Below are positions 8,103 through 64,000 of a stretch of DNA of 64,000 bases, piece after piece. Origin of the DNA: Nautilus pompilius (taxonomy: Eukaryota; Mollusca; Cephalopoda; Nautilida; Nautilidae); the NCBI GenBank assembly GCA_018389105.1, contig JACATO010000334.1, forward strand, positions 310,001 through 374,000, written 5' to 3'. Both the position numbers and the translations under genes were made by a program. The number at the start of each line of letters is the position of its first letter. Positions within the stretch are counted from its first letter, which is position 1. Under the pieces are notes generated by a model, which saw only the letters and a program-made list of their open reading frames with translations, was not told the origin of the DNA and did not search any database.

Positions 8103-9391
8103 CAAAGTATGTCCAAAAAAGAAACTCACCTTTTGAAGCAGTGCGCCAACCAGCCGGTGCAGCATGCTCGGTGACCTTGACCTTCAGTCTAATAATAGCT
8201 GCATCATGCCACATCAGTTAGTCATCGATCTTCATGTGCTGGAATGAACATATGTTTAGTGCACTTGGCGATTTGTCGCAAGTTGAACAATGAAGGATCT
8301 TGAAGAGCAACGTGTTTGTGTGAAATTCTGTTTCAAATTGGGAAAAACTTTTACAGAGACTTTTCTAATGTTGCAACAGGCCTATGGGGAGGATTGTTTG
8401 AGCTGTACACAATGTCACAAGTGGTACCAGCATTTAAAATCAGGCAGAAAATCCACCAAAGACAATCCCAAATCTGGATGACTTTCCACGACAATGGGCG
8501 ACGATCACATTGAGAAAGTGCATGCTGTGATCCATGGAAATCGTCACCTGACTGTCCGTGAAGTTTCCGAAGAAGTAGGCATCTGTAAAAGTTTATGCCA
8601 CATGATTTTAAAGGAAAAATTGAACATGCATCATGTAGCCACAAAATTTGTGCTGCGTCTGCTGACAGATGAACAAAAAGAGAACCAAGTCAGTCAGTCA
8701 GGAGCTCTTTGATCGTTCAAATGCTGATGAAAGCTTTCTAAAAGTGTCATAAAAAACATGGGTGTACAGCTATGATGTTTAAACAAAAAGGCAGTCGTTG
8801 CAGTGGGTTGGATCATCGTCGCTACGACCAAAAACAGCACACTGAGTCGCTCAAATGTGAAAGTGATGTTGATCGTTTTTTTTGATTGGAAGGGCATCAT
8901 TCATCATGAGTTTGTTCCATGTGGTCAGACGATCCACAAAGAGTTTTACTTAGATATCCTGAGGCGGTTGAGAGAGGCAGTGCGAAGAAGTGGTCTGAGG
9001 CATGGAAAAAAACCTGGATGTTGCAACATGACAATGCACCTGCTCACGCGTCACTCTTTGGCAAAGCACGAGATGACTCTCATCCCCCAGCCACCCTCCT
9101 CTCCGGATTTGGCCCCTGCAGACTTTTTTTTGTTCCCAAAGTTGAAATCCACCCTGAAAGGTCACTGATTTCAGACGATAGAAGAGATCAAAGAAAATTT
9201 GCTATGAGAATTGCGCACTATCCCTGAAAATGCATTCCAGGACGCATTCCCAAACCGGAAAATACGTTGGGAGCGCAGTGTATCAACAGTGGAGGAAACT
9301 GTTTTGAAGGAGACAAGTTTGCTTAAATTGTATGTAAAGAAATTAATTTTTTTTTTTAAAAAAAGTTCGGTTTCTTTTTGGACAGACCTCG
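8103..9391 (+). mobile_element. second mariner element, decayed
   Basis: The element is 1289 bp. The right end, read as complement, is CGAGGTCTGTCCAAAAAGAA. The left end at 8103 is CAAAGTATGTCCAAAAAAGA, so the inner part of the repeat matches but the outer bases have drifted. TA flanks it at 8101-8102 and 9392-9393, and it landed at the edge of a TA microsatellite. Its outer ten bases are shared with the first mariner, but the rest of the terminus and the protein differ, so it is a related lineage and not a recent copy of the same element. Confidence 0.9.
8290..9345 (+). pseudogene. mariner transposase, stops and several frameshifts
   Basis: The start ATG at 8290 opens MKDLEEQRVCVKFCFKLG, the usual mariner N-terminus. 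A TGA at 8479-8481 falls in the SGR-LST linker. The frame resumes to about 8700, where a frameshift moves it just before an ELFDRSNADESFLK block. The first catalytic Asp region (GDETW in the family) reads S-stop-K-T-W, so Asp and Glu are both lost. The frame then shifts again, giving SRSNVKVMLIVFFDWKG in the frame of the ATG at 8803. WMLQHDNAPAHASL appears in another frame near 9020-9060, and SSPDLAPADFFLFPKLK returns to the 8803 frame. The tail after a TGA near 9166 reads FQTIEEIKEN. It is clearly dead and older than the mariner at 3586. Confidence 0.88.
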
Positions 9392-9969
9392 TATATAGAT
9401 CTGGTAAAGAGAGGGGATCAAATTAGATTTTGAGGAAACATCTGAGCCTGTTAAAGGGAACCCTCTATATCAAAACTGTAGATAATGCACAAATACAGAG
9501 AAATTTCCAATAAACTACAAAAGAAAAAAATATCAAGGGAATGTATTATAGACATACTTCATTCTCCCTCCCCCCCACAAAAAACTAGTTTGAAACTCCT
9601 GCTGACAAAAGGGTTGTTGTTAGAACTCATCACCCGTGACTAACAAGCGTGCAGATATGCCATGCAGGGGAGAAACACAGCTGGTAGAACCTGGGCTGAG
9701 TGAATGAAGCACAGGCTCCAGTGGCAGTACAACAGTAGAAAATAAATACATGGCATTCAGGGTGGGGGGGTGAGTTGTTTTTGCATTGTTTTTTTTTTCT
9801 TTTTTGTAAGGAAAAAATAGAGTATCATTTACTAAATGCATGAATAATTTACAACAAAGCATGGGAATTCTAGACTCCAAGTTCATCATTTTTGCCTGTC
9901 ATAGTTACAGCAACAGAGAACAAAAGATTATTTTAAATTTAATAACATGATTTTATATATATAATTATA

Positions 9970-9984
9970 TGTGTGTGTGTGTGT
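9970..9984. repeat. (TG)n microsatellite
   Basis: About seven TG units follow a TA-rich run. Confidence 0.9.
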
Positions 9985-10045
9985 AGAAGTTTATAATACA
10001 CAAAGTTCACAACTACTTTTTAAAGGGACTTTGTACCAATAACAG

Positions 10046-36100: not shown

Positions 36101-36303
36101 CTATGGATTAAATAATAATAATAATACATTTTTATATAAATAATAATTTCTCATACAATTATAATGACAAGAATAGTGTTTGAGAAACCTAACATTTTTA
36201 GGGAGATATAGAAGTATTTAATTATTTTAAAAATAACTCAAAGTTAATGAACAACACTATACATCTGGCATTCAGCTAACTGACACCCATGGCAACTACA
36301 GAC
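33191..36303. other. non-coding stretch; one 145-codon frame of doubtful status
   Basis: The plus frame 33165-33602 starts in the SINE. From the ATG at 33189 it reads like a signal peptide (MKSIVILCFCAMFQSVVIA) followed by a polar region. It has no family resemblance I can see and no promoter or splice context. The minus frame at 34036-34278 has some codon-like composition but no consistent exon borders. A TA run lies near 34584-34602. Confidence 0.35.
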
Positions 36304-36338
<35 letters not shown>

Positions 36339-36339
36339 A
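36304..36339. repeat. (TA)n microsatellite
   Basis: A near-perfect TA run of about 36 bp. Confidence 0.9.
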
Positions 36340-36575
36340 TGCAACAATTACTTTAACTGCATTATTAAAGATGGCAGTTAAAAACCATAGATATTCATTA
36401 ATCTACTTACTGAGAAGACCGTTACAACTAGGTATATTACATTACAGATGTTCCTAAGTATCACTTTCAAATGAAATATTCAGGATTTGACAATGCCACT
36501 TGACAAGTGTTGCCAATAAATATCATGGAGACAGAACACGAGTAGTCCCATAAAAAAGAAAAGAAAAAAATTCAC

Positions 36576-36720
36576 CTAAGCACAAACTGTAAACTAATTG
36601 TACGAGAATGTGTCGTTGAACAGATTTCCAAGCATACGAACTTTTAAGCCTCCCGAGGAGCAACACAGCGAACATTATTCTCCTGTGGGCTTTAAACTCT
36701 TTACCTTCTGAAGTTGCCAT
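36576..36720 (-). CDS. candidate first coding exon of a minus-strand gene
   Basis: ATG at 36720 stands in an optimal context (AAGATGG). It opens MATSEGKEFKAHRRIMFAVL and continues for 48 codons plus one base to a donor CTTAG/GTGAAT. The segment is richer in CpG and GC than the surroundings. The peptide has an acidic-basic start, a hydrophobic FAVLLLG stretch and an amphipathic WKSVQRHILVQLVYSL helix. I do not recognise the family. An in-frame upstream ATG at 36756 has a poor context. I found no phase-1 partner exon downstream, so this stays a candidate. Confidence 0.42.
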
Positions 36721-37076
36721 CTTATTTATTAATTTTATCCAAAATGTTAACAACAAATGAACAAAAAACAGGAAATGCTTACCACGATCTCTTTAGATGA
36801 AAGTATATGTCTCCCCTTAAGTCTCTTTAGTCAAAGAGTTAAAAGAAACATTTCATTGACTGAACTAACCAATTTAAAAAAAAAACAAAACAAAATAAGA
36901 TGCAATTTAAAATAAATATTTTTTAAAAAACCAACAGAAACTAAAATGAATCTCACACAACTTGTACATTATACTGTCACATTGTTTAGAGCAAGTTTCA
37001 ATGACAGCATTAAGTTGGCAAACTCATAAATAAATATATGACCAAAATTTACATAATTCAGGTACGACAACGTATA

Positions 37077-37569
37077 CAGCTATCCCTCGCCAACTGCAAG
37101 GGTTATGCTCTTGAAAATTCCTGTGGTTGGTGAGACTAAAGGATTTTGGGAAAATGTAGAATACAGAAATAGTAATACCTTTAATATTTACATTTACTAT
37201 TAAAAATATAGTGAACAAAAATACTTTTATTTACCTTTAACACCATGATGATTGAGATAGGATATGATGGTTGATGACGATGCACAAAACATTAATTTCT
37301 TTTGTCGTCATATAATCGCCATTACCAAAACAGATTTTCATCACCAGATTTCATTGCATTTGGTAAATTACCAAATGGCAACCCTGGTGTTGGCTTGGGT
37401 ATGCGTGCACTTGAAGTGCCACTACATTAGTGGCAGAAGCTGGAACAGCATGCATAAACCATGGATATGCAAAACTGACCACCACAGTTGGTAAATTGGT
37501 ACTTATATAAATTTTGCATGGATACTTGAAACCGCGGTTAGCAAACTTTTTGTTGGTGAAGGAAGACTG
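37077..37569. mobile_element. pogo/Tigger-type miniature element (MITE)
   Basis: The left end CAGCTATCCCTCGCCAACTG pairs imperfectly with the complement of the right end (CAGTCTTCCTTCACCAACAA), with TA at both borders (37075-37076 and 37570-37571). CAGT-x-x-TCCCTCG-type termini are typical of pogo/Tigger elements. The 493-bp interior has no transposase block, so it would depend on a transposase supplied elsewhere. Confidence 0.6.
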
Positions 37570-37799
37570 TAGATATAATACATTTAGGTGAGCAGATTGC
37601 CAGTGCACACCATCCGCATGCAAAATCTACACTATTTCTCCATTTACCTGATGTCATGTTATAAGTTGTTCAATGTGTGGCCAGAATCACAGACAGATTG
37701 CAAAGATCTCAACATTTCTTATGGATCTGACCAATATTGTGTAAAATTCTCCAAGGAAAATTTCCCTGCTGTGGCAAAGTGACCTGTATACTTTCAACA

Positions 37800-38330
37800 G
37801 TGATGCAACATCATGTTATTACTTGCCATGTGTGCATCATTTCCACCAACTTGGCTACAAAGTGTGTGTAGCATGTAAAAAAAATTTTTTTTTAATGTTC
37901 TGTCCAATTGAAATAAAAAATATTTCAAAAGATCCAGTCAAATGATGTCTGGAAAAACCTTTAGCTGTTGGCATAACACTCTTATTCTTCTCCAATGAGT
38001 CAAGATTTCAGCAATTAATTTAGCCACACCTGGGTTTAGAGAAGACCTAACGAAGACTTTTAATCCCAATGTCTGAGACCATGGACAACTAAGATGGGAC
38101 TATAATCTGGCATGGTAGATAAACAATTGCTATTTGTCAAAAAAATGTCATAATTCTTCCAGGTATATTGCCATTTTAAAGATACATCCCCTATCATTTT
38201 ACCCAAAAGGCATTCTGAGATTTGATGACCCTATCTTTCAAGAGGATGGTGCTAATTTCCACACCTTGTGTGTGACAAGTCTGGAAAAAAAAAATTAAGG
38301 CATTCAAATTTAACTTTGTCCCTAGCTATG
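37800..38330 (+). pseudogene. Tc1-like transposase relic
   Basis: Decayed plus-strand frames keep the family order: FSNESRFQQLI near 38000 (FSDES block, catalytic Asp read as Asn), RRPNEDFNP near 38040-38067, a DYNLAW block where the family has VMVWG, and FQEDGANFHTLCVTSL near 38240-38285 (second catalytic Asp block). Stops and frame changes are frequent and the termini were not found. Confidence 0.62.
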
Positions 38331-39079
38331 TGAAAGGCCTGATATAAATTCAATTTATTACCTGTAGGAGCAGCTAGATCAAACATCCTGTCAATATGAT
38401 GGAATAAAACAAATATAGAAAACTTGGTACAAATTGTGATAAAAAATTTTGCTGATTCAATGCCAAACAAGGTAAAGGCTCTTCATACTACAAAAGGTGA
38501 GTCAGCCAAATATTAACAATGAATTTCACTCTATTTCTTGTCGTCTTTGCTGTTTTCCATGATAAACTAATATACTATAATAAAAATAGGCAGCCAAATT
38601 ACTATGGCAGAGGACTGTACAAGTTGATTACTAACCATCCATGGCTTTTAATTGCTATCTCTCCTACAGACAATAATTTATCAACTATAAATAAAAAATT
38701 AAGCAAAAAAAAAGATTTTAAAGAGGAGTTTTGATTTGGTGAGGAAATTGTTTTTAACAATTTACTTTAAGTCCTTCTTACCCTCTTATTACATTGAAAA
38801 TTTAGGTAGGCTGACCAGGAAAATTTGCATGCATTTCCAGTGCCTAGGACAAAAGAAAATTATTAAATTCCTCGATCGTAATTATAAGGTAAATTTATTC
38901 AATAAAGAGCTTTTTTATGCATGGTAAAAATAAAAAAAAATGGTTTTGATCATAAACTCAAAAATATAAACTTGGTAAATGCATATAATCAAACAAGCAA
39001 AAAATCACCGATTCAACAATAAAATGAAAAAAAAATCAATCATAATTGTGTCTAGGATTAAGGAAAAAAGCTACCAATA

Positions 39080-40250
39080 TTATATTACATGGCACAAAAC
39101 TGGCTGAATGTAAAGCCATGTTGTTTGTAGATGTGCTTTCTGCATCTCATACAGGTGATGATTGTCTTGTCGCCATTGCCAAATGGTGCCCAGTTTTCCC
39201 TTTCCCTGAATATTCAGTCTCAGAGCAATTTCTGCAGATCCCCAAGCAGCCAAGATCTGGTTTTGATGAAAGTCGACTATGGCTTCTCCCAGCATCTCCA
39301 GAATAAATGTCAGCGTCAACAAAGTTTGTTGGAATTCCACTCTGAATGCATCAATAGCCAGCAGGTGGTCCTTTGTTGACAGTTGGAGCCTGCCAATAGT
39401 TTGTAGAGATAATTCACATTTCACTTTTGTGGGTTGTAATGAAGAATGATGTGAGGAGGCTTCTTCTCATTTCCTCTATTTACTGTTGCATCTTTGATCA
39501 GTAGGAAATTAAGGTGGTTGTCAGCATAAAAGCAAATATTAATGAACGAACTGGGCAATCTTTCATTTATACATCAGGTGGAAGCACCAGCTTATTTCTT
39601 CTTATCAAACCCAGCACTGAGAATTTTGGCCCCAAGCCGATATGATGTAAAAAATTATCTAATGTGATGGTAGAGCCTCATAAACCCTGGGAAATATCCA
39701 GTACCACACACACACAGCCCCCTCCCCTGATTATGTTCCAAGGCTCCACCAGTTTCCTAGTGTATACCTGTATGTTCCAGGCATAACCAAATTTATCATC
39801 ACAGGCCACCTACAACTTAAAACTATACCATATTGCCTAAAGGGACAGCATCCCCTAAAGGGCACCAAACATTCATCAATGGTAACATTTTACCTCTGGC
39901 TATACAGCTGAGGGAAAATCTCAACCTTTTACCCTGGCCTCATAATCATCAAATCAGTCAGGCAATCTCATGGAATGCTTGAAGACATATGGTGGCAAAG
40001 AAAAATAGTTCAGCATTCCAAAGGATAGCAGTTATTCTCTGTTGGACCTGTAAATGCCTATCAAGAAACGTAATCCAAAATAAGTCTGCATGTACATGTA
40101 GTCAATGCCATTCCATTTTTTGCTGAAAACCCACCTGCCTTCCAATTTGGTCATATTTCCAGAATGACATTAGTGACTGCCAATGGCATGAAGAGATCAA
40201 ATGACAATTTTAGGTCATGTACATGTATTAGATATTATAGTGTATTGAGT
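39080..40250 (-). pseudogene. piggyBac-like transposase relic
   Basis: On the minus strand FDLFMPLAVTNVILEI lies near 40.22-40.17 kb. NVTIDECLVPFRGCCPFRQY lies near 39.89-39.83 kb, a close match to the piggyBac TIDEQL-x-x-FRGR-CPFR block, with the first catalytic Asp kept. ITLDNFLHHIGLG near 39.67-39.63 kb keeps the second Asp. IILHYNPQK near 39.45-39.43 kb then leads to VNYLYKLL, where the family's third Asp (VDTLDQ) is replaced by Asn. DHLLAIDAFRVEF and LTLTFILEM follow. Stops and frameshifts break the gene throughout. TTAA-flanked termini were not identified. The frames at 39046-39379 on the plus strand are antisense shadows. Confidence 0.85.
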
Positions 40251-42084
40251 ACGCTCTGAAACCATTTGAATATTTGCATTGGACTACCTGCCTTGATTCG
40301 ATTGTGGAGATGCTTCCAACTGTTTTTTTTCATCGCTAGATCTCAAGATTTCATTTCCCCCTCAGGTAGACACGTTATTCAAATCCTCAAACTCTAGAGA
40401 AGATGAAATGCATGAGTTGGGATCATCATAGTATCATCAATTTCTGAAACTTCCTCTTTGGCATCAATCTCTCTTTGTTTTTCCCCTCTCTGCTAAAATT
40501 TGGAAACTGCCTGCAACTATTCATATTTTACCTCAAACCCAGAGAGATACTGCAATATTAATATCAAGAAAAATATGACACCGATAAGATTGAACAGCTA
40601 GAAATAAAAACATAAACGGTCAGTGACTCAAAACATGACGTGTGCACAAAATGTCATGAAAAAGGAAATAATGATTCATATTTTTTACTGATATTTTTAT
40701 TGCCCAAAAACAAGAAAAATCATTAAAAAACTGAGAGTAAAAACAAATTTTAACAGAGTTTGTACACTGCTCAAAACTGCTTTTGGGTCATATAGATCTG
40801 AAACATAAAATGAAGGTTAACCAAAAACATAAGTAGATTTTAGCATTCATTCTGTTCTTTATTTCTCAGATTTTATTTTAAATTCCATTGTTTTAATCTT
40901 TAAATTCATTTATGGTTTATTGATAGTCAAACAATTGGTAATAGCAGTTCAAAATTATTAAGTGAAGCAAATATTGTTTGACACATCCATGAAGTGAGCA
41001 TGTGTTTTATTGTTGGGTCAGATAGATAACTTCTCAGGATTGGATGATTTAAAAAGAAACTTTCACCTTGCCCCTGATGACTGCTTTGACATTCACTGCA
41101 ATCATACAAAGCACATTTAGTTGCGAGACCACAGATGCAAACATTTGTGCATAATACAAACACCAGAAATCAGCATGATGTAATTCCATAGTCCATGGAA
41201 TATGCTGCTGTGGCAGGGCTAAGAACTAAAGATTAACCCTTTTTGTATTACCATATTATATATTTAAAAGGAAAGAGAAAGTTAACTTTGTTTAGTTTTT
41301 TCATGTGTAGCATGTGACTGCTCAAGATTAATTACATGTCTATGATTCACACAGCTTATTTTTCATTGGTCCTTAGGGAAATGGTAAAAAGATACTTCAG
41401 ATCTCTTTCTCCTGACTACTATGGCAACTGTATACAGGATACTTGATTGCCATTTGTAGTATATGGCATCATTTAAAAATAAAGAGAGGCAAAACTTTGA
41501 TTACTAGAGTGCGCTTTGCTGCCATAAATGTCAGCATGGTTTAGCAACCCGGTGATCAATACCATCAGATGGTGAAAACTCACCAGATGGAGAGCCTGAG
41601 AGTGAGACCAAACTGTATCAGCTAAAGCTCCAATGCACATATAGCCAACTTCATGAATTCAGGAAGCAGAAGACAACAAAAAATTGTTTTGAAAAAATAG
41701 AAATTAAATGTTGATTGACAAATAAACACATACATATAAACAATTATTAAACTATCTGCCATCATATCAGGGATACTGAGGATAGAAACAGTCTGAAAAT
41801 ATACTTTAAATTTGTAAGTAGTAAATATTCTAACAATTTAATATTTAGATAAAACTAAAAGATCAAAATCTTCACATAACCAAAGTGGAAGCAGATGCGC
41901 CTGCCCACTGTCAATTTTAACCCAGGACTTAGCCTAGTTTCTGGATAACAAGAGGATTAAGTGGGCACTAACTAGACACCTTAACCATACCCACTCAGCA
42001 ACCAATAACTGAGCCACCAAAGCACTTGTGTTGATGTGCAAAATAGGTATCACAAGGAAGAGCTCCACTAAAACCTTTTGTGTT
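40251..42084. other. AT-rich stretch, no gene seen
   Basis: It includes decayed sequence that may be the N-terminal part of the piggyBac gene (to about 40.5 kb). Nothing else is recognised. Confidence 0.4.
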
Positions 42085-42200
42085 TAGATGGTGGGGGGAG
42101 AACCTACAAAGCCAGCTGGTGAAGAAAAGTGAGAAGCTGAAAGAGAGCTGGTACCTGCAGGGATTACAACATGGCCCTCAACCTCAGCAGAAAAAAATCT
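42085..42200 (-). repeat. partial SINE, minus orientation
   Basis: On the minus strand GTTGTAATCCCTGCAGG is a weak B-box region. It is followed by TTCACCAGCTGGCTTTGTAG and TTCTCCCCCCACC, which parallels the body of the SINE at 32985-33190 (TTTACCAGCTTGTTATATGG, then TTTTCTCCCACA). The head appears truncated. Confidence 0.4.
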
Positions 42201-42839
42201 TTTTTAAAAAATGTCAAAATTTTTTGTAAAAAAAACAAACAAAAACCTGGTAAAGTTGTGTGCCGTGAATTAATTTAGCAACCTCCTAGTGAACAAATGT
42301 AAGAATATAATTGAGGTAAAAGGCATAAGGCAGCATCAGCTGCAGGCAGAAATACAAGAAAATCAGATTATCTTTAGATTGGTTAATGGCCATTTAACAT
42401 TAAATTGGTTTACATCATCTTGGCTTCTGAGTATGTCAGCCTGGCAGAGTGCATGCAGTTTTGGACATGCATGGAATGAAGGGCACTCAATCGTTTCTCT
42501 AGGGAATTCAGATGATAACTGTAATTCTTTCGTGATAGAAAAATAATTATACTTGGCATTTGTTTCTCGCTTCAGTTTGAAATTTCAAATTTTTTTTCCA
42601 CTTCCGCAAGAAAAGTAATTACCAAATATGTTCCGAGGTTTACCATTTCCAAAAGCTATACTTTAGTGATTAAAATGAAACAAGCAGCCATCATGAAAAA
42701 TCTATGGTTCACAGAGAAGACAAATATCAAAGTTGATTAATATTATTATCTACATTTGCTGGTAATTTATTTTATTCATTTATAATTCTATTGATAAACA
42801 AATGGGTTTTTTTTTAAAAATACTTTAATATCAAGCTGT

Positions 42840-43260
42840 GCTGACATCTTTTTTTTCTCTCTGTGTGTGGTGCATGTGTGCGGGTGCAGGTGTAAAGTTC
42901 GTGTATGCGTGTTTATCTCTGAGGAGAAGGGAGTGGAGTAGGCCGAAGCCATGTGTGGAGCAAGCTCCTGGTGTAGGCCTAAAAGGCCGTGTTGAGGAAT
43001 TGAAGCACCTCATGTAACTGGCCACCGAAGCGACCAGTGTGAGGGCCACGTGAGCAACCAATGTAGGGTGAAGCTGAAGCTTCTAGTTGGGAATGATCGC
43101 TTCCCCAGCCAAAAAAACCTATCTTGGGAAAAATGGCCTCGGCACATCAAGTCTGAAATTCGGTCTCAAAGTGCCTAACCTATCCAGCCAGACAGGCAGG
43201 CAAAGGGCAAAAAGCCTCCCTCACCCCCACTCTTTTTGGGCAGGGGACTTTCCGTCTGTC
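42840..43260. other. GC- and CpG-richer island, nature unknown
   Basis: A 420-bp block stands out by composition. It starts with a CT/GT-rich run and contains short internal near-repeats (CTGGCCACC, GAGGGCCAC, GAAGCGACC). The plus frame 43087-43419 begins here but loses its composition bias after 43260. It could be a dispersed repeat, a decayed exon or a regulatory element. No family was recognised. Confidence 0.3.
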
Positions 43261-43419
43261 AGAACTACAAAACAGAGTACATTGAGTCCAAATAAGGTCA
43301 GTCAGCAAACATATGCTAAACAGTTAAATGTCAAAATCTTAAGCCAACTCATTATTCCAATGCTTAGAGAAAAAATAATGGATAAAAATTATTTAGAAAC
43401 TAAGCCAGTTAATAATTAG

Positions 43420-46400
43420 CACTAATGGAATTTGTGTTACTTTAGATCAGACCCACTTCAAATCGAGAACACCACTATCCAACACCTTCTGCACAGGTGT
43501 TGCAAGTTAACATTTAGAATTTTGATGCAGGTCTAAACTCTTTTCCAAAGAGTCATGACCAAAACAGGAGGAAAGTTCAGTTATGATGCTTTTGATTTTC
43601 ATCTCAAAACAGGTTAACTACTTTGCCACACTAAATCAACTAAAGTCAATCTAAATGTTGCTCTTTCTTCCTGCCACCTGCCTTGTTTTCATAATTCTCC
43701 TTAAACAGTTACCAGATCTCCAAAATCATGGGTATACTTAGTGTTCTTACTACTTTAACTCGCTCTTACAGCCTTTTCAGAATTGAAACGGAACTCTTCT
43801 TTATTTCTTTTAAAAATGTTATTGCCAACAACTGACATCCTATTGAGGTCAGAGTATCTAGCACAAATGGTGCAGGTTTTTATTGTATATGATACATGAG
43901 AAAAAACAACAAAGAAACCCACAATCACAATAAAACCTTTTATTTATTCAGGCATATAATTTTATTTTCAACATTCAACTTTTTAATTACTGTTATTATT
44001 TAAAGCTGTTTTAAAAATGTCCGCAAGTAAACGCAGATTTCCAGCATGATTTACATCTTTAAACAAACATCTTTCAAAAGAAATAACCTTGAAACAAATT
44101 TCAATGAAAACAGGAAACAAAATAATGATACTTTTTTAAAAATACATAAACAGTCTTAATTTAAGTTTGTTTTTTTTTACAAATTCTTTTAATGATATCT
44201 AGAAACAAACGTATTAAAGTATAGATCATCTGAAAGTTAGACAAGGATTGAAGCAGCAGCCACGATATGACAAATAGGTTGGAATTTAGAGAAACTGGTC
44301 CAAACTTTCAAAAACCTGGATACCTATCTAACATGGTCACACATGCCATTTCTTTTCTGTTTGACAAGGTTTAGTTACCTCTTCCTCTTTTTTACCTCAA
44401 CAGAATGTCAACAACTGATGTTGAAAGGAAGAACTGAAAGGGGTACCAGAGTTTATACACTGAGTTTGCACAGTGTATCCTGATAAGCCAGTTGTATAAC
44501 AAAAGTGGAGCTATGAAAACTCAGCAGGAGATGGGAGATAGATAGAAAGAGTCTCTACTATGTAACTTGATAAGCGTGGGAACACAGCCTGCTGCTTATG
44601 TACAGCTGACACAGTTTACCTCCTCCCCCTCCTCACAGATGCCTGCCTTTCCTTCCCCCTCCAAAAAAAAAAAAAGAAAAACATAATCGGATGAGTCAGC
44701 AGACTGGAGTAGAAGCCAGACTATGTTGATTATCACTGCTATTAAAGGTGTTAGAACTATTCCACTACATGGGGGACACTGTTTGTGGGCTATGGTCAGC
44801 CACCTTAACAGACAAAAATGAAAAGACAAGACATAAGCAGCAACCATCTTACTTCCTTCCTTGGCCACTACCCAACACAAAGAAATACAACCCTGCCTCC
44901 AGCCTCCTCTTCTGAAATATCAGACTAATCGTTAATGGCTGCTTTAACTAAACGAGCCCCCCCCCTTCCAACTTACCTGATAATTGTTGCCAGGAAAATT
45001 AGACAAGATACAGGGATGATCATCACCCAGTGGTGACTAGATCTTTCAGTAACTCTTCTTCACTCTTTCTTTTTGTCCCAACTATTTCTACCTTACAATA
45101 ATAATAATAAAAACTTCCAAAATTTGCATAAACATTATAAACTATGCAATCATTTAAATTAGAAATTAGTTTTTCAGAATACTGAAACAGAGCAGATAAA
45201 CTGAAGTCTGTGATGTGATCTTATCTCTCTAACTGACAATTGTGTTTTAAATAATTATTTTGATATGATGTTTTCACTAATAAAAGATGATTCAGCAGAT
45301 AAAATCAGTTTGCTGTAATTATTCTTAAAAGCAGACAAACTAATTACCAATCCTCTTTTCTTTAATTAATGATCATGGGTGCTGTCATATACGTTTTGAC
45401 AACACACTTGCCATGGGGGTTACTTCTGCCATCCATCTATGGCCCTGCTTAGAAAAAAAAATTCTCAAGATTTTTTTTGTTTTTTTAAATGTTTTCTTTA
45501 ACCCTTTGTGGAGTAATCCTCTATTTAAAAAAAAACTATAGAATTGTTCTGTCAGGATTGATACCAACCTACACCCTTTAAAATACACAAGGGTGTACTC
45601 CTCAAAGGAGTTGATCATTGTGAAGCCTCCTTCCCACTTCAACTAGCTCTTTGTTGATTTTATTTTGGGTACCTTTTTGGGTGGAGTGGGGAAGAAGGAT
45701 AAGTTTCCACTAGCCAATGTATCTGGTACAGCTGTAAGGCCTCTTCTTTCAATTAATTTTTTGCTAATGCTGTTACTGAAACACAGCACAAATGTCAGAT
45801 TATTTGCACCATCCATCATCAATTAGAGCCCTATTAAACTGTCTACATATAAACAACACGGTGACATGGTGACAATACTGGACAGGATTAATTGCTACCC
45901 TGACAATACAGTAGTCTAAATAAGTATATTAACCCCCTCCCTGCCAAGCACTTCCAACCAGGTTATTATGAAGAGTGTCCCCCAAAGTAACGAACCACAC
46001 TCCCTAATATTGGTACACAGGGGATAGCTCAGTAGTCACTGACTGTAAGTGAAGTCTCCCATGCATAGCGTGTTGAAGCAACCCTCTTAAAAATGTACAA
46101 ATGCAACTGCATTGAGGTGTATGGTCCAAATACTGTCAGTTTTCTCAATGGGGTTCAGTGAAACATGGACAGGAGATATATGTCACCAAAGATGGGGTTT
46201 ATGTAAGAAGAAAGAAACACTATTCAGGTGGTGTTTTTTGTTTTGTTTTTTTGTATAAGACGACAATGAAACAATATAAAAATAAAGAAAAAAAAAACCC
46301 AACAAAACCTGAAAGGATATCTTTAAGAAAAATATCAAGAAAATTGTAAATGGACAGAATAAGCCACCTGGGGAGGTGGTTAATCATGTGAATCAGTTTT

Positions 46401-54703: not shown

Positions 54704-55009
54704 TCAGTTCTTCACATTATCTGCATCTCGCCCATGCATGCCATGAACAGGTGTATTGACAGATATCAGCATAGGGTCTTGGTGATCATACGTTTTATCT
54801 ACCCCAGTGAAAGTATTTCCATCACCCTCATTAACCATAATAAGTGTCTTCGCTTTCATTTTCTGCATGCCTTTGTTTAGCTGTAGCTTTGAAAAGCTTT
54901 GATCAAGACTTTTTTCATCAACAGTGGAAGTCTGAAAGTCTTCCCTTCTGCTGCAGTTATGCAGAAAGTCCTTTAATTCACAATCAGCTGAGCTTGGTGT
55001 GTGTTTTGA
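54704..55009 (-). CDS. last coding exon of the nine-exon minus-strand gene
   Basis: The acceptor TTGTTACTTTTAGCAG is followed by 101 codons and TGA at 54704-54706. It is entered in phase 0, as the exon at 56756 requires. The peptide starts SKHTPSSADCELKDFLHNCS and goes on through a charged, low-hydrophobicity stretch containing DEKSLDQSFSKLQ. This looks like a disordered C-terminal tail. No methionine-initiated frame of note exists here, so the exon is easily missed by ORF finders. The long open frame in AT-rich DNA plus the strong acceptor support it. Confidence 0.7.
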   Translation of the reverse strand, partial: SKHTPSSADCELKDFLHNCSRREDFQTSTVDEKSLDQSFSKLQLNKGMQKMKAKTLIMVNEGDGNTFTGVDKTYDHQDPMLISVNTPVHGMHGRDADNVKN

Positions 55010-55334
55010 CTGCTAAAAGTAACAAAAGAAACAAACTCTACATACACACAGAATACATTATTTATTAATTAAAAAAAAAAAAATTACCCATGTCTCTTCA
55101 TTTTCAAAGAGTTTGCTTTTGCCAGAAGTTTAAGTCATGGAGCATTCATGGATCATCTAAGCCAGGTACAAGAGCAAACAATCAGCCATAAAATGAAGGG
55201 TTAGTTTAAGAATTTCCTATCCTCTTAGTAGCAGTTTAACTGATGAATCTGTTTCAACAATCTTTTGAGCTAAAACTTGTTTTAAAAAAAAAATACAATA
55301 AAAAAATCTAGCAACCTACAGGCTCAAAGACACC

Positions 55335-55530
55335 ATGGTCCTGAATGATTTTTCAGCAAGATAAACTAAGACCTCACATTGCTACATTTTGCTGTTGTGG
55401 CCACATTAAGGATCAACTCAGCTGCTGTACTCACCTGTAAGTAAACCGGCCTCATATACTCTTGTACTTGTGAGGTTTTAGTTCAGGAATGGGATGCCTT
55501 TTCCTGCCTTTTCCCAGCCTCTAATTCAGC
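55335..55530 (+). pseudogene. Tc1-like transposase fragment in an intron
   Basis: The plus strand reads FQQDKLRPHIATFCCCG near 55351-55401, the second catalytic Asp block of Tc1-like proteins. EVLVQEWDAF follows about 85 bp later, where the family has an EW-x-x-IP block. The fragment is short, with stops. It lies antisense in the last intron of the minus-strand gene. Confidence 0.45.
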
Positions 55531-56755
55531 TGACATAAAATTGTATACCTATGTTATACTTTTTTAATGGAAAGGTCTATATACTAATTTCCATCTTCAA
55601 ATGTTATACTCTGTTCAATGTATAATATTTTTCATATATAAGTAATTACATAGTCATCCAAATAAACCGTGTGCCAAGACTTATAGAATCCATTAAGGTC
55701 AAATTCTAAATTATGAGAAAAACAAATTTTGGTTTCATGAGAAACTCAGCTCTGTAAAAGGTTTTTGGATGGCAAGAAAAATAATAAAATAAAAGTAAAG
55801 AGAAGAGAATATTAAAAAAATACCAAATGATAAATAAAGGTAAAAAAATTAAGAAAAAGGTGCGCACAGCTCACATACACAGATTAAGTACAATTTGCAC
55901 AAAATGAAGGGGAGATAAATCAAAAAAGGAAAGAGAAAATATTGATTTTACTAGTTTATAAATGAAGAGAAATATGATTTCAGTATGGTCAGTGTGGGAT
56001 CTGGCCAAAACCGAAATATCAGCTTTAAAGGATGTCTAACTAATGCTGTAAGGCTTCCTCATGATTGTACAGATGGGAGACAACCCACTTGTGTTTGTAC
56101 AGGATAAATTTACTTGCATAGCCAGAAGTACAATCCTATTTGATGGAATAAGTTAAATGAAACATGTGGAGATTTTATCCTTAAATAGCAGAGGGGGGAG
56201 GAGTCTCAATCTGGCACTAAATGTAAAATGCATTTTTAATGAGCTAAACTGCAAGTTATTCTGGTTATGTTTTTATTCTAACTTTAAATATTTTTTTTAA
56301 ATAGGTACTTTAAGCCACACTGATTGAGTGAAGAAACCGTGCTCAAGAAATACGCTAAACTAAGCCAGTACCCACAAGAATTCCCTGGCTTCTTTTTTAT
56401 TATGAATTTAAATTCCATTGTCAAGCCTGATACATAAAAACAAATTAAATTTGAGAAAAATAGATTTCATAAGCTATGATGGGGTAATCATATCTTTGTA
56501 GAATATGCTAGCATCAGAATACATCTATGGATAGAGTACATTAAATGCTAACCAGAGTGCTGAAGAAACTTTCACACAAGCTTTAGCAAATTCAGAAGAT
56601 GGACTGGAAGAAAAACCATGATAGCTATGGCAAAAAGAAACCATGCCACAGTTAGAAGTGAAGCAAAGAAAAAATAATCTAGCAATTGCTGTGGTATACC
56701 GTGGTTTATTTTAAGCTAATCAACTGTATAGAAACCTGTTAAGGCGACAACTTAC

Positions 56756-56830
56756 AACATGGTTCAGTTTCAGCTCTCTTGCTAGAGGTGATCTTCCCAC
56801 ATTCTTTGCTGATCTCTTGACTCTCTGTGG
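56756..56830 (-). CDS. exon 8 of the nine-exon minus-strand gene
   Basis: A 75-nt exon, phase 0 on both sides, with excellent borders: TTTTCTCTTCTTTGCAG acceptor and CATGTT/GTAAGT donor. It codes PQRVKRSAKNVGRSPLAREL then KLNHV. The peptide is basic, with one P-Q-R-V motif and one Ser-Pro site. Because it is frame-neutral it could be skipped without disturbing the reading frame. Confidence 0.75.
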
Positions 56831-58524
56831 CTGCAAAGAAGAGAAAATAATTTTAAAAACATCAAGTCACTTGAACACCACCAGGACATGCAGAACAGAA
56901 ACATCAGTGCCATGGTTTTCCTAGCTTAAAACTGCAGCCACACAGACACAAACAAAACAAACAAGCAGAAACGTGAGCGATTTAATTCAGCATGAAGCTC
57001 TAAGGCACATCTATTCTAAAATAGATAGGCATTTAGCATGTCTGCTCATTTGAGAGCTTACAGATTGAAACTCTTTGCCTTATTAATATGCTTGAATGTA
57101 TAGATTAAAGATAACATATAACTGTTTTCAGTGCAGAAACAAATAATACGAAAAGATTACTGATAATAGCATTATAGGTATGGCCATCAAAGGCCAAGGC
57201 ATGCTCTTGGGTAAACTTGATGGTGGGGGGCATTGAGGTAACTCCCCTCCTCCAGCCCACTAGGCAATATTCTTGATTATATAGAAATTTAAAGATTACC
57301 AGAAAGAAAAAAATATTTTGGACTAACAATCATTCAACAGTGCCCAAACTATTAATTTACTGCAGCTATAGTGTGTGAGACAGACATTTGGACATTACAA
57401 TCTAACATAGAAAACCAATTCTGGTAAAAAATTTGTAACATTTGTTGTACCAAATTCTGTACTGGCCTCAATGCAAGGAAGCATCAATGAGGGAATAAAT
57501 TAGAATGTGTTAATTCTAAACAAGCCACATCAATGCTATAACTCTCTCCACCTAGCTCCTGGGAAATCCTTGTATTTGCTCAGATGACAGTTTGGATACT
57601 GTAGATAGGTGGAGAGGATAAAACCAAACGTATGGGCAAATAATCAAATCAAACCAACCCCTGGAGCAATAAGTGTTGGGTTACAATAAAACGGAAACCA
57701 ATTCAAAGATAATTGGCATTAGTCTCCCTTGAAGATTTCATTTTATATTTTTATAATTTCCATGTTTACTTATTATTATTTGAACATTTTTTGCTTGTCA
57801 TCATTTATTTTCCAGGCCATCTACAAATTAAATTCCTCTTTTACACTTGAATTTCAGAAAAATAACTGATGCCTCATTCAGGAGTGTTGATATCCTAGAT
57901 TAACCTGACAAAGATGATTAAAGGGACGTAACTAACACGATAGTTTACTTTTCAAAGAGCTATATTTTTCGTAAGTTAATTCCTTAAGAAATTATTCATA
58001 GATGCAGTCATAAGGGCAAGATTTTAAAATATTAAATTAAAACAATAAAAATATTACCAAAGAATAATAATGGAAGGTATTTCTCTTTTTAAAATAAAAA
58101 TCACAGGGAACAAAGTTCAAAATAAAATTTAAACATAATAATATAAATTTTAGCCATTAATAAAAGTGTTCAGCAGCATGAAGGTTATATAAAAAGTCTG
58201 GCAATTATGAAGTAATTTAGAAATCTTCTATATAACGAAAATACAGAATAAAGTAATGCTGGTTTTTTTTCTTATTAGTTATATACTTAAACCATGCAAC
58301 TTTATTTTAGAAAAATTAACTTTTCATTTCTCATGAGTTGTACTAAGTGACCACTGTAGAATTTATGTAGCAAATACGAAGTCATATTTATAACATTATG
58401 AATACAAAGCAAACATATTTTAATTCTCAAAGTAATTGTCTCCCTTTAACTAGAAATATACCTGGATAGCATTAAAGGAGTTTGCTGCAGTATTCCTGTA
58501 ACAAAGAAATACATAAAATCTTAC

Positions 58525-58667
58525 CCAACCCACTGGCGTCCGACATTTCTCCACTCTTTGAGGTGGCATGAGTGGTGTCTGAGGACTGTATTTCAATGTC
58601 AGCTTTCTCTTTCCACCCAATGAGAAACTGGGTGTAACATGATGGCATGTGTGCCTTGAGTGTGACT
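58525..58667 (-). CDS. exon 7 of the nine-exon minus-strand gene
   Basis: A 143-nt exon entered in phase 1 (AG completes a Glu codon) and left in phase 0 at GGTTGG/GTAAGA. It codes SHSRHTCHHVTPSFSLGGKR, then a stretch with YSPQTPLMPPQRVEK and RTPVGW. It carries four Ser/Thr-Pro sites and one P-Q-R-V motif. The acceptor region after GATGTTGAAG offers two AG choices two bases apart; only the first keeps the frame with the upstream exons. Confidence 0.72.
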
Positions 58668-58871
58668 CTTCAACATCGAAAGAATGCAGGCAATAAGAAA
58701 AGGTAAAAAAAAAAAAAAAAAGAAGGGAGATTACTTCAGATTTTTGAAAATTAGCAATCATGTTATAATTAGAATTATTGTTATTTTAAATATAAAGTTA
58801 TCTCCGTTCATACATTTTAATGGGTAATTGTACCTGATGTTTCTTTATTCTAACATTTTACTTTTCCTCAC

Positions 58872-58898
58872 CTCTTGAAACAAGACTGCTGGATCTAG
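58872..58898 (-). CDS. 27-nt microexon (exon 6) of the nine-exon minus-strand gene
   Basis: The microexon lies between acceptor ...GTGCTAG and the strong donor CAAGAG/GTGAGG. It is phase 1 on both sides and adds nine residues (reading ARSSSLVSR and a split Glu codon) without changing the frame. Skipping it also joins exons 5 and 7 in frame, so it is a natural cassette. The insert is Ser-rich. Support comes from the donor and exact phase fit; the acceptor is only average. Confidence 0.5.
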
Positions 58899-59164
58899 CT
58901 AGCACAATGTTACAGAGGCAAAAAGAAAAGTTGTCATTACAACTATCATGGAACATTTAAAAGTGCTTTGTTACTGCATATTTGTGAAGGATGATAACTA
59001 CAAAGGCTTTTTGGTCAATCATCAGACAGAGAAACAGTTCATCATTTGACATCCACATCTATAAATGTCAAACATCATATATTTCCAAGATTATAGCAAT
59101 TTTGGTACCTGACATGGCTACCTCTTTCTACCACACATGCATAAAATCCATTTCTAGGCATACT

Positions 59165-59211
59165 TTCTCTCTCCTCTCTCTCTCGTGGGTGTGTGTGTGT
59201 GTGTGGGGGGG
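59165..59211. repeat. composite (CT)n-(GT)n-G8 microsatellite
   Basis: A CT run passes into a GT run and then a G run, within an intron of the minus-strand gene. Confidence 0.85.
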
Positions 59212-59993
59212 GAATTATCTAAAGAATAAAAAACCAGAACTTTTTAAAACTTTCCTAAGGGAAAAAATCTTTATTAACTCATAGGTGATAGAAAGAAGAA
59301 CCAACCAATTGAAATGTCAGAATTTAATCCTTTTTTTTATGCATCCTTGGCATAACTGGCAGGGAAGAGTTTAACTTTAATCTCTTTAACATGAAATATA
59401 ACAAAGCTCCTGATGATGCACTAATTAAATTATCTGTAAACATAAGTATACTTAAATTTAAACAAAAATAAGAAAAAGTAAACAAGGCATAATTTAAATT
59501 AAAATGCAATTTTCAAACATCGTATGTTCATAATTAACCTAAAAAAATTAAAAGGAACTTCTTTTAAATTCAATGATCAACAACACAGTGCAAAAAAAAT
59601 GTAATTAAAAAAAAAAAACAAACCTAAGTTATATCAAGGATGACTGCTGCATTTTTTAGATTGTTTTGAAAATATGGATGTAAGGTGGTGGATACTGAAC
59701 TAGCATCTCTGCACACACCAGTTCTCCACCTAGGTTTTGTTGTTTCCAAATTTTCTGCATCACTAAATACAACACACAAGCCAAAGAAATATGCAGATTA
59801 ATATGACCTGACAACTCACTCAATATGAACAGCATGGATTTAAAAGGTATTCAGAGATAAGGAAGCAAGAAGTTAAAATAAAGCTTCCTGAAACAGACAA
59901 GCAAGTCCTAGTAATTTCCCTTGAGTTGGTATCATGTGATGGTCAAGCAACTAAGGTGTAAGCAGAGGATAATAAACAATTAAATGTCTTCAC

Positions 59994-60126
59994 CTGTGAG
60001 GACTCTTTGAGGACTGCCAATACGCTGGGGTGTCTTTCTGATGCATGATGGCTTAGGAGTTAAGGATTCTTGCACCAACTGCCGTTTAAAGATGGGTGAT
60101 TTAAGATAGACTGCATAACGAGGAGT
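59994..60126 (-). CDS. exon 5 of the nine-exon minus-strand gene
   Basis: A 133-nt exon, phase 0 in (acceptor CTATTTTTAAG) and phase 1 out (CTCACAG/GTGAAG). It codes TPRYAVYLKSPIFKRQLVQE then SLTPKPSCIRKTPQRIGSPQ and RVLT. It holds five Ser/Thr-Pro sites, two of which (TPQR and SPQR) fit the full CDK consensus, and two P-Q-R-[I/V] motifs. This is the part of the protein most suggestive of cell-cycle kinase control. Confidence 0.75.
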
Positions 60127-60904
60127 CTTAAAAATAGATAAATAATTAAATGAGACAGAGAGCATGAAAGTAAAAAAGACATTGGACACATCTGCGTATG
60201 GCACCAATTCTCATTAAAACGTCTGAAAACAACAGTGAAATTTCTGTTGCAATAATGATAAATAATTTAAGAGATGGCATATCAAATGTTCTAGTAAGGT
60301 CTTCTTCCACTAATGGCAGAAAGCATCATTTGCCTGAACTATGCCTCAGGTCAAAACAGCTCACACCAGACAGACATGGTGTTGTCTGAAGTCCCACATG
60401 AATACTCACCAATCAATCAGTGAACATAAACTCTATCCTTAACATGCATTAAATCAAATAACTCAGAGCCAGTAACTATGCTTCCCATTTCTCTTTCAAT
60501 ATATCAGCAACATCATTGTTCCTTCCTTTGGCCAAGAATATTCTCTCTTCTATAGGGAGTACCCATTTTAATGTTGGCAGCTAGCTCTAGAAAAAAACAC
60601 TTGGCCATATAATGCAAATGCACACACACGCACTTCTCCCAAAACTCATTCACACTGACCAATGTTAGAGCAATCTTTCATTTGTTTAAATAAAAAAAGC
60701 AGCAGCATAAAATGCACATAATATCAGATGAAAAACAACAAGAAATAAACACAAATAATTAGAGTTTTATCAGCAATAAAATAGAAATAGAGAAAGTCTG
60801 AGATGTAACTCCAGCTGTATATAATAAACAACAACAGAAGTAAAGAAAAAAAAAGGCAGAAATCAGTGGTCGTGCAGTAAACTGCTTTTTTTCTTCCTTC
60901 TTAC

Positions 60905-60987
60905 CTTTTGGTTGGTATTGTTAGTTGGGCAGCCTATCAAGTACTGATTAGCAATTGATGTAATGTATCTGGTTCTTTTAAAACCCC
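60905..60987 (-). CDS. exon 4 of the nine-exon minus-strand gene
   Basis: An 83-nt exon with an excellent donor (CCAAAAG/GTAAGAAGG). The acceptor ATTATTGAG lacks a pyrimidine tract but is the one that keeps phase 1 in. It codes GFKRTRYITSIANQYLIGCP then TNNTNQK and leaves in phase 0. The RTRYITSIANQYL segment reads like a folded helix at the edge of a structured domain. Confidence 0.62.
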
Positions 60988-61675
60988 CTCAATAATATCC
61001 CCTCTGGTGATTGCCTTCTACATTAAACTTCTATTAATCAAGCAAATCAGGTATGTTCATCTCAATCTTCAATCACTGGTTCTGGCACCATATTTAACTG
61101 GCCCAGTTTCTTATTCCAATAGTGAGCTTAAGCTCCACAATTAATTACCCATCTCATAAATTCCATGAAGGTTAAATACATACACTGCCACGTTAATTTG
61201 CTGTTTGTTTGTTTTAAGCTGCATTTACCAATGATGATCATTAACTTTTGTAGTTAAATATATGATGGATTCATTTAAACTTCCATTATGATAGAGTTTC
61301 AATAATGACATACCACAAATGCATTTTAAATTTGTATCAGTATAAAACAATGTGATAAAATGAAAATAAACAGTCTGTCATGTAGGCATGCTACTATCTG
61401 GTTTTTAATAGGCAAACACTCTAATGGTTTTAGTGTTGGAAATTCTAATGAGGGCCTGGACATTTTGGTCTCAGCTGAAAAGCTATTTACATTATATAGC
61501 TAGTAAAGAACCTAGCCACTGGAGTAGATTAGACTTTTTCTAATAAATGACAGAATTTTACAAAAGGCTTGCACATATTTCAAGGTTACTTTAACTCCCC
61601 ATGTGCTCTATTTCTGCATTGCACAATAAAAATGAAGCATTAAGAAGATGGTAGGTATATTGAGTGAGTAGCAAT

Positions 61676-61691
61676 ACACACACACACACAC
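61676..61691. repeat. (CA)n microsatellite
   Basis: About eight CA units in an intron of the minus-strand gene. Confidence 0.85.
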
Positions 61692-62069
61692 AATGTGTAT
61701 ATGGAGGATAAAATGTTTCAGCCCTAAAGGCTATTAAATCTTGTACAACAAAATATACTGTAAAAATTATTTAAAGAAATTTTGCCTTGTTGGTTCTATA
61801 TATTAGCTCAGCATCCATAACTCTCTCCCATTGGTATTATTACTCTTAGCCAGCATACAGCACACCATCAGCTATAGTATGTCCATATTAGACCGCATAG
61901 ATAGGAGACATGAAAGATGCATAATTTGCACAAAGCTATCGAATAGATATTTAGATACCAGAATGATTTATTTATGCAAGAAGATGAGTCACAAATACAG
62001 GTTAACAAAGAACTACTGAAGTTTCCCCCACAAGGAAATTTTAGTTAGTAAATTAATAATAATTTTTAC

Positions 62070-62208
62070 TTAATGGAAATAAACTTTTCCATTCGTTAAC
62101 TGTTTTTTCTATTTTTAGATTGTGTGCATGGCTGGTTAAAAAGTCTTTGATGTAGCTTTCATACCGCTGTACAATCACATTACACAATTTATCGTTGATT
62201 CTTGGAAC
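62070..62208 (-). CDS. exon 3 of the nine-exon minus-strand gene
   Basis: A 139-nt exon, phase 0 in after AAATTTGAAAG and phase 1 out at CCATTAA/GTAAAA. It codes 46 residues including VPRINDKLCNVIVQRYESYI and KTVNEWKSLFPL. The mix of aromatic and aliphatic residues suggests a helical folded domain, unlike the Pro-rich tail. The splice borders are average; support comes from the open frame and phase agreement on both sides. Confidence 0.6.
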
Positions 62209-62748
62209 CTTTCAAATTTCCCACAATTCCTTGCTCTAGCTTATGTTGTATCCAAATGAATTTCTGAGCAGATGTGCATTCTTAAAAGTTATGCAGACAC
62301 AAATGCATTAAATGAATGAACAACACACTTTGCTGCAGGAAAATATGGGTAGAATCCATAATGTGTTTAAAGTTAGTTTAAAGTGATAAAATCCTACTTT
62401 TCTTTTGGAAAACTATTTAATGTTAATTCAATTTACATAGAATGTTCTTTAACTGATGTTGCTAATATTGTGACATGCATTAATTCTCTGGTCAGCTAAA
62501 AAACATGACAAATGGAGTTACTGTTCTTCTCTCATAAAGTTACTAGGTATACTGTTCAAAATGCCTTCAATAAGTTAAATGCAAAAGTCATGTAAATAAA
62601 AAAGAAATTTAGTGTGGATTGGATGACTGAATATACAGATAATTTAATTTTTAAAGTATGTCTTCTTTGCATCATTGAAAATATGCAATTTTTAAAACTA
62701 AAAATTTTATTAACCTCAAGTGTCAGCATCTGTTCTATCAACCTTCAC

Positions 62749-62793
62749 CAGTATCCATCCCTCAATGAATGAGAGGAATACAGTATCACCAAG
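62749..62793 (-). CDS. exon 2 of the nine-exon minus-strand gene
   Basis: A 45-nt exon, phase 0 on both sides, after a strong acceptor TTGATTTCTGCTTTCCAG and with donor ATACTG/GTGAAG. It codes LGDTVFLSFIEGWIL, hydrophobic and probably part of a folded core. Confidence 0.57.
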
Positions 62794-63112
62794 CTGGAAA
62801 GCAGAAATCAAATCTATTTTGAAAGGCATTTATGCCTTCTGCTTTAATTATCCTATTTGCAAAGCACTCCAGGTAGACACAATAAGATTACTAAAATCAA
62901 ATTTTCCTTTTATTTAATTTGTGCACATATGCTATTAGTGTAAAAAATCTGGCCTAAATTTACATTTTCTTTACCAGAATAAAAATCTTAAAAACATCAA
63001 TCATATCTCTGTGAAAATGCCTGCAAACCTGACTAAACATCCAAAACCTCTTTCTTTGTCTTTTTTTTTTTTTGGATTAGAGCTATCAATATTAATAATC
63101 AAAAGAGTATAC

Positions 63113-63178
63113 TTTCTCTAAACCTTTTTCTGGAATGTCTACATCTTTACAGCTAAGACGACATTCACAGGCTACATA
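63113..63178 (-). CDS. first visible exon of the nine-exon minus-strand gene
   Basis: A 66-nt exon after acceptor TTTGACCTCTTGCAG, ending GAGAAA before GTATAC. It is phase 0 on both sides and codes YVACECRLSCKDVDIPEKGL then EK, with three Cys. The donor is weak (A at -1), and another possible donor 11 bases earlier would break the frame. Earlier exons lie beyond the window; the hAT insertion at 63459 would fall in the intron before this exon. Confidence 0.57.
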
Positions 63179-63458
63179 CTGCAAGAGGTCAAACCAACAG
63201 TTATAAACTAGAATACACACAATGTTTTACTATTTATAGTATGATTGAGCATACTCAAGACCCTCTTAGTTTTAAAGTATATATTTAAACTTTTGAGCTA
63301 TCATCAGTTGTGACATCTAAATCGTTTTCCTCCCTTTCCTGTTATTTCAAGTCTAATTTATACAAACTATTTATAATCAACATTGAATCCAAGGCTTAGA
63401 TACTTTTAGTTGTGAACATTAAATTTCATCTGTCATTTATTAGATCAATCTTCTAGAC

Positions 63459-64000
63459 CAGGGGTTCTCAAACTATGGGTTATGACCCCCACCACCTGGG
63501 GAGTAGGGGGTCACAAGCAACTTTAAAGGGGGTCACAAAGTTCTCAAGAATTATTTAAAATACTAGCTTATGGCCCATCACAGTTGACAGGAATCAAAAC
63601 AATTTGTTGCAATTATGAATTATTCATAGTTTCTCTTTTATATCTCATATCAAATCACATTTAATTCAAAATCTCTTCTCACCTTTAATCGAGTTGCATA
63701 CAGAATTGCACAGTGCAAAAAGCCCCACACAATTGGAGAAAATTTAATTTTTCCAGCAGCAACTTAAATGGTTACTACTATGCAGTGTGAGTCGAGTGCA
63801 AGATGATTTTTAAGCATCCCATTGTCCAATGACACTCTGTCCCACAAAATCACAGAGGATTTAAATGAGCATCTAGTTGAAAAGATAAGTAATAAACCAT
63901 TTGCAATTCATATAGATGAGGTGATGGATAGCACTAGAGATGCTCATTAAATAACGTACATAAGATTTATTGACGAGGAAAAGAGGATTTACTCTGCTTG
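63459..64000 (+). mobile_element. hAT element (ZBED5/Charlie-like), left end and 5' part, runs off the window
   Basis: CAGGGGTTCTCAAACTATGG at 63459 followed by a GACCCCC patch is a classic hAT terminus of the CAG-x-GGTTCTCAAA type. The eight bases before it, TTCTAGAC, fit the nTCTAGAn target preference known for this hAT group. A transposase relic follows in the expected orientation. Confidence 0.82.
63714..64000 (+). pseudogene. hAT (ZBED5-like) transposase relic, partial
   Basis: CKKPHTIGENLIFPAA at 63714 is followed, in another frame from about 63812, by LSIPLSNDTLSHKITEDLNE, VEKISNKPFAIHIDE, a stop at 63949-63951 and YIRFIDEEKRIYSA. In the family these are the KKPHTIGE block, the PLSNDTV-x-RRI block and the F-A-I-Q-x-DESTD catalytic region. 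A frame change between the first two blocks and stops show it is dead. The rest lies beyond the window. Confidence 0.82.

Follow-up and report, generated by a model that had tools for sequence, protein, structure and literature searches.

A candidate gene end encoding a serine/threonine-proline- and PQR[IV]-rich tail in Nautilus pompilius, assigned neither to Treslin/TICRR nor to MTBP

Does the minus strand of this stretch of Nautilus pompilius DNA hold the end of a protein-coding gene, and if so, to which protein family does its product belong? The window, that is, the whole stretch of 64,000 nucleotides, corresponds to positions 310001-374000 of contig C325 in a genome that was searched over 727.6 Mb and 2,558 contigs. 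The original prediction had placed nine minus-strand exons of an unannotated gene in it, and had read their product as a folded part followed by a disordered tail regulated by cyclin-dependent kinases (CDKs), with Treslin/TICRR as one family to test. With moderate confidence we regard this region as the 3' end of a real minus-strand protein-coding gene, of which exons 5-9, and perhaps exon 2, encode a basic disordered tail of serine/threonine-proline (S/T-P) and PQR[IV] motifs. Judged from sequence, both Treslin/TICRR and MTBP are excluded as its identity, and no family is assigned to it. The model is probably in part mistaken at exons 1, 3 and 4, and evidence falls short of a folded domain.

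Each of the nine intervals is preceded by AG, exons 1-8 are followed by GT, and exon 9 ends in TGA. Joining them reproduced the predicted places, the agreement in phase, the length of 1017 nt and the terminal stop; one of the three frames of the joined sequence is open and encodes 338 amino acids (aa) followed by the stop. Splice sites were scored with generic splice-site matrices, and the percentages given below are ranks among all AG or GT dinucleotides on the strand. The exons, in window coordinates, are as follows.

63113..63178, minus strand: exon 1, 22 aa in an open frame, doubtful; splice-site scores 1.8 at the acceptor (top 6%) and -2.5 at the donor (top 37%)
62749..62793, minus strand: exon 2, 15 aa, plausible; splice-site scores 4.1 at the acceptor (top 0.6%) and 1.7 at the donor (top 3.6%)
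62070..62208, minus strand: exon 3, 46 aa, doubtful; splice-site scores -2.2 at the acceptor (top 50%) and -2.3 at the donor (top 34%)
60905..60987, minus strand: exon 4, 28 aa, 5' edge doubtful; splice-site scores -4.8 at the acceptor (top 83%) and 4.4 at the donor (top 0.3%)
59994..60126, minus strand: exon 5, TPRYAVYLKSPIFKRQLVQESLTPKPSCIRKTPQRIGSPQRVLT, supported; acceptor 0.8 (top 12%), donor 3.1 (top 1.1%)
58872..58898, minus strand: exon 6, 27 nt, with support from the donor alone; splice-site scores 0.1 at the acceptor (top 19%) and 5.3 at the donor (top 0.2%)
58525..58667, minus strand: exon 7, SPQTPLMPPQRVEKCRTPVGW, with support from its motifs and its donor; splice-site scores -0.3 at the acceptor (top 24%) and 2.3 at the donor (top 2%)
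56756..56830, minus strand: exon 8, PQRVKRSAKNVGRSPLARELKLN, with support from its motifs and both splice sites; scores 5.1 at the acceptor (top 0.2%) and 1.2 at the donor (top 6%)
54704..55009, minus strand: exon 9, the last, encoding 101 disordered aa and the stop; acceptor 3.4 (top 1.4%)

The best evidence for a coding tail is the recurrence of PQR[IV] in exons 5, 7 and 8. The motif counts of the original prediction were borne out: the joined peptide carries 12 S/T-P sites, two of them full CDK sites of the form S/T-P-x-K/R (TPQR and SPQR), and four PQR[IV] motifs located in residues 144-216. Within residues 112-253 (142 residues) there are 11 S/T-P sites against a shuffle mean of 3.0, a count reached in none of 10,000 shuffles, and the four PQR[IV] compare with 0 of 20,000 shuffles that contain two or more. 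When all six frames of the whole window were counted, 6 PQR[IV] were found against a mean of 0.88 in 60 random sequences; four of these six, all on the same strand, fall within exons 5, 7 and 8, and only 2 of the 60 random sequences have even two PQR[IV] within 3.5 kb on one strand. The tail is basic in character, and charge-hydropathy analysis places residues 112-237 and 238-338 on the disordered side. To our knowledge the PQR[IV] repeats correspond to no established motif class, the literature not having been searched for PQR[IV].

An open frame, acceptable splice sites at exons 5-9 and motif enrichment are thus all present in this part of the chain. The donors of exons 5-8 rank in the top 0.2-6% and the acceptors of exons 5-9 in the top 0.2-24%, and the sites of exon 2 are also good. 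For exons 3, 4, 5 and 9 only the proposed one of the six frames is open, exon 9 lying in an open frame of 102 aa with stops in the other five. The G+C content of the nine exons is 0.411 when pooled (individually 0.317-0.490) against 0.255-0.343 in the eight introns, with exon 3 (0.317) at an intron-like level. A DNA search of the own genome with exon 7 returned one match, exon 7 itself. A crude and simple gene finder, run blind to the proposed exons, built a chain of 11 exons in which exons 2 and 5 were recovered exactly and in the proposed frame, exon 9 in frame with a different end, and five further intervals were its own. Its chain score of 41.4 exceeds those of all 40 random sequences (maximum 12.3) and of the plus strand of the same stretch (6.7). 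Exon 2 begins and ends in phase 0, which makes direct joining to exon 5 possible, and this was the choice of the gene finder. The tail is probably coding, and the upstream half of the model is doubtful.

Several results weigh against this reading. Codon usage, modelled on kinase open frames from 26 of 30 loci of the own genome (third-position G+C, GC3, of 0.58), backs none of the nine exons, as 595 to 2,366 of 4,000 chance open frames score as well, and for exons 6, 7 and 8 it favours a different open frame. The gene finder placed exons 6 and 8 exactly but in a different frame, and shares one edge of exon 7, also in a different frame. Six other minus-strand stretches gave scores of 93.0 (transposons), 21.5, 31.9, 12.7, 42.4 and 30.8, and plus-strand positions 1-10000 gave 40.7. 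Neither the joined peptide, nor its fragments, nor selected upstream open frames matched a Pfam family above cut-off, a weak negative in that single diverged exons can escape (as does one of the two STD-region exons of the true TICRR described below); the joined peptide also has no match in the PDB, where three matches at expectation values (E) of 1.3-1.9 are chance. A pattern fitted 4 stretches of viral contigs and 37 of prokaryote contigs, none of which was confirmed as a relative, which is expected for such a gene. Full CDK sites are not enriched, the two being equalled in 600 of 5,000 shuffles, nor are RxL docking motifs, three of which were found and equalled in 802 of 5,000. Finally, no convincing initiating exon was found in the scanned interval C325:369900-375300.

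Some of these points favour the alternative that open frames were strung together by chance, or that a dead gene lies here, with no translation today: there is no codon-usage signal, the exons were picked by eye, and comparable gene-finder scores occur elsewhere on the minus strand. Set against it are the recurrent PQR[IV] and S/T-P motifs, the splice sites of exons 5-9 and the freedom of every exon from internal stops, and we consider it unlikely. The frame discrepancies suit another explanation, in which the exons exist but splicing links 6-8 differently and they are read in another frame, part of the motif pattern being untranslated; the alternative frames of these three exons are open and stand higher in codon usage and in the gene finder. 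The junctions given above, however, force the frame from exon 5, which has one open frame, and PQR[IV] recurs in the proposed frame in exons 5, 7 and 8, which makes such a reading improbable. As an observation in its own right, an exon chain with a gene-finder score of 42.4, as high as that of the nine-exon region, lies on the minus strand at window positions 36001-46000. Sub-cut-off Pfam matches of the peptide searches (eWH_GTF3C1, Mt_ATP-synt_B, A-sol_ELP1, DUF4567, ABC_AB and RRM_Thc1) were taken as chance, and a search of the window against Rfam gave nothing above the gathering score.

Is the favoured 3' gene end preceded by a folded domain? If the nine-exon model were right throughout, exons 1-4 would encode a small folded domain ahead of the tail; the phases agree, exons 3 and 4 are open in the proposed frame only, and charge-hydropathy puts residues 1-111 on the folded side. 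Yet four splice sites, namely the donor of exon 1, the acceptor and donor of exon 3 and the acceptor of exon 4, score at the level of random AG or GT dinucleotides. Seven splice sites of the TICRR gene of the same genome all scored at least -0.2 against -2.2 to -4.8 for these four, a calibration that favours TICRR in that the best-scoring candidate was taken at each TICRR match edge, and the acceptor of exon 7 (-0.3) also falls slightly under that set. A shorter variant of exon 4, 60905-60933, has an acceptor of 0.2. Moreover, exons 1, 3 and 4 are missing from the blind gene-finder chain, and no Pfam or PDB match supports a domain here. We therefore judge it unlikely that the full model is correct. 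What survives of the original prediction is the end of a gene of several exons whose disordered tail is rich in S/T-P, a reading that has moderate support; its folded part, which lies on exons with unsupported splice sites, was not upheld, and nothing beyond the S/T-P enrichment spoke for its CDK regulation.

The family proposed for testing, Treslin/TICRR, was compared with the tail by means of human sequences, as was MTBP. The resemblance is at first sight good. Both the tail and the C-terminal region of TICRR are basic and disordered with many S/T-P, and share a local PQTPL-x-x-P-x-R-x-x-K resemblance; the tail aligned with human TICRR 1078-1202 at 30.8 bits, a score that none of 500 plain shuffles reached and that 4 of 500 shuffles reached when S/T-P pairs were kept, and 993 of 1,000 shuffles that kept both S/T-P pairs and PQR scored lower. 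Exon 7 was also the best tblastn match of human TICRR within 114 kb, but with an E of 0.45. In a panel of eight human proteins or parts with 1,000 shuffles each (also keeping PQR and S/T-P pairs), the shuffles that scored as well numbered 0 for MTBP, 7 for TICRR (2 for its 1057-1257 part alone), 41 for DTL, 49 for CDT1, 125 for HAUS6, 238 for FOXM1, 404 for POLA2 and 524 for SKA3.

The genome's own TICRR, however, lies on another contig, C124:

C124:607780-628714, minus strand: TICRR/Treslin gene of this genome, with Treslin_N and both TopBP1-binding sites and, more weakly, matches to the STD

Human TICRR 1-797 had one match in the genome, C124:627983-628486 on the minus strand (E 5.6e-9), and the open frame there matches Treslin_N with an E of 9.3e-22. 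Downstream, on the same strand and colinear, follow matches to TICRR 634-653 (E 3.0), 720-752 (E 0.27), 965-1004 (E 0.006) and 1668-1690 (E 0.031). The exon matching 720-752 reaches Treslin_STD at 0.0035, under the cut-off, and the match to 965-1004 at C124:609493-609374, in the TopBP1-binding region/TDIN, contains both phospho-sites (TVAETPAHKQ and VVEESPVK). Because these matches, singly weak, stand in order and both TopBP1 sites are present, C124 is clearly the TICRR of this genome, and its pattern agrees in domain order and in the two TopBP1-binding sites with that given in PMC8807876.

Since TICRR lies on C124, the window gene is not TICRR, and the proposed family is excluded; we see practically no chance that the tail belongs to the C-terminal region of TICRR. 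Further differences point the same way. Treslin_N is absent from the joined peptide and from the upstream open frames selected for scanning, which are a part of all upstream frames. Treslin_STD gave no match in the window exons, with the human STD as positive control (7.8e-69), a weak negative in that one of the two C124 STD-region exons scores 0.0035, below the cut-off, and the other has no match; a six-frame genome search with the same profile gave no match, but its control was silent too and the result is empty. By tblastn with human TICRR, no TDIN bearing a pair of CDK sites comparable to T969 and S1001 was found in the window or in the 50 kb upstream. The window peptide had no credible match at the C124 locus, the best being of 25.0 bits and E 0.11 on the opposite strand. 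The feature of TICRR that the window peptide does have, an S/T-P-rich disordered C-terminus, is non-specific. An open frame at C325:375284-375168 that by eye resembled the Treslin M domain was rejected, as it hits a stop and could be read on only by shifting frame.

The same question arises for MTBP, the Sld7-like partner of Treslin, because the tail resembles human MTBP 751-831, with a score reached by none of 1,000 shuffles and, in a second test, by none of 500. Here too a separate gene was found:

C344:45861-52446: MTBP gene of this genome, with four MTBP segments in order

The MTBP_N profile had its sole genome match on C344, not on C325, with an E of 0.0022 and, for the exon open frame alone, 2.1e-6, both below the curated cut-off; the human MTBP query found the same place (E 0.218). 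On C344, matches to MTBP 188-248 (E 1.1e-5), 375-482 (E 0.064), 482-519 (E 0.43) and 541-570 (E 0.74) follow one another in order. Residues 1-115 of the window peptide show no similarity to MTBP, 119 of 500 shuffles being as good, and the joined peptide has no MTBP match, including MTBP_C, up to an E of 10, although diverged exons can escape such a search. The chance that the window gene is MTBP is very slim. A likeness of exons 2-4 to the middle of MTBP, noted by eye, was not recovered by Smith-Waterman alignment and was rejected.

The tail matches to TICRR and MTBP are thus best read as products of chance or composition. They therefore set a limit on trust in such matches: TICRR and MTBP beat nearly all or all shuffles and yet are encoded elsewhere, and tail matches of this kind are unfit for naming genes. 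The likeness of the tail to replication factors misleads, and the value of the locus is mostly one of annotation, as a probable unannotated gene end of an otherwise ordinary kind; TICRR, with both TopBP1 sites, and MTBP of this genome were located along the way.

In-frame ATGs occur at window positions 62829, upstream of exon 2, and 60165, upstream of exon 5, neither of them convincing; the gene may start at an ATG of this kind or outside the window. About 29-32 kb upstream of exon 1, on the same strand, two well-spliced and mutually phase-compatible S/T-P exons (C325:404693-404596 and 402344-402253) encode NSIKDCEHFQEPTDKITSPKCAKLDNNRGSGRCLTSPSEKLKPDVLSSVSRSKQNILFSPQPQ, which suggests that they may be part of the same, longer gene. 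In the favoured reading, exons 5-9, and perhaps exon 2, would form a basic, intrinsically disordered tail of repeated S/T-P and PQR[IV], followed by a disordered C-terminus. Proline-directed kinases, either CDKs or mitogen-activated protein kinases, would phosphorylate the S/T-P sites, with CDK specifically not indicated, and phosphorylation might switch the binding of a partner that recognizes the PQR[IV] units. Clustered S/T-P sites, basic character and disorder are common to the generic proline-directed phosphoproteins with disordered tails, and the four PQR[IV] repeats set the window protein apart from them. It is speculative, and quite improbable, that the gene encodes a lineage-specific regulator, separate from both Treslin and MTBP, whose repeated S/T-P and PQR[IV] units would act as a multivalent, phospho-switched docking array, possibly including the upstream S/T-P exons.

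Other elements were observed near the gene and elsewhere. At C325:374513-374700 a set of acceptor-like and donor-like sites is repeated at a distance of 142 bases, which suggests a short tandem duplication, and the sequence at about 63430-63520 of the window, upstream of exon 1, is by eye what we take to be a hAT-like non-autonomous remnant. A transposon remnant at window positions 1445-2956 has inverted ends of 111 bp, 93% complementary, flanking a transposase fragment that matches DDE_3; it is presumably a Tc1-like DNA transposon. Mariner/Mos-type transposase remnants matching Transposase_1 lie at 4025-4654 (minus strand) and 8776-9168 (plus strand), and the frames at 3656-4024, 4608-4910 and C325:446160-446548 are by eye related to them. 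Among the kinase matches, those at C1439:102833-103246 and C2035:103064-103477 have identical scores and near-identical offsets, as do two places in C2008, which suggests uncollapsed haplotypes or recent duplications.

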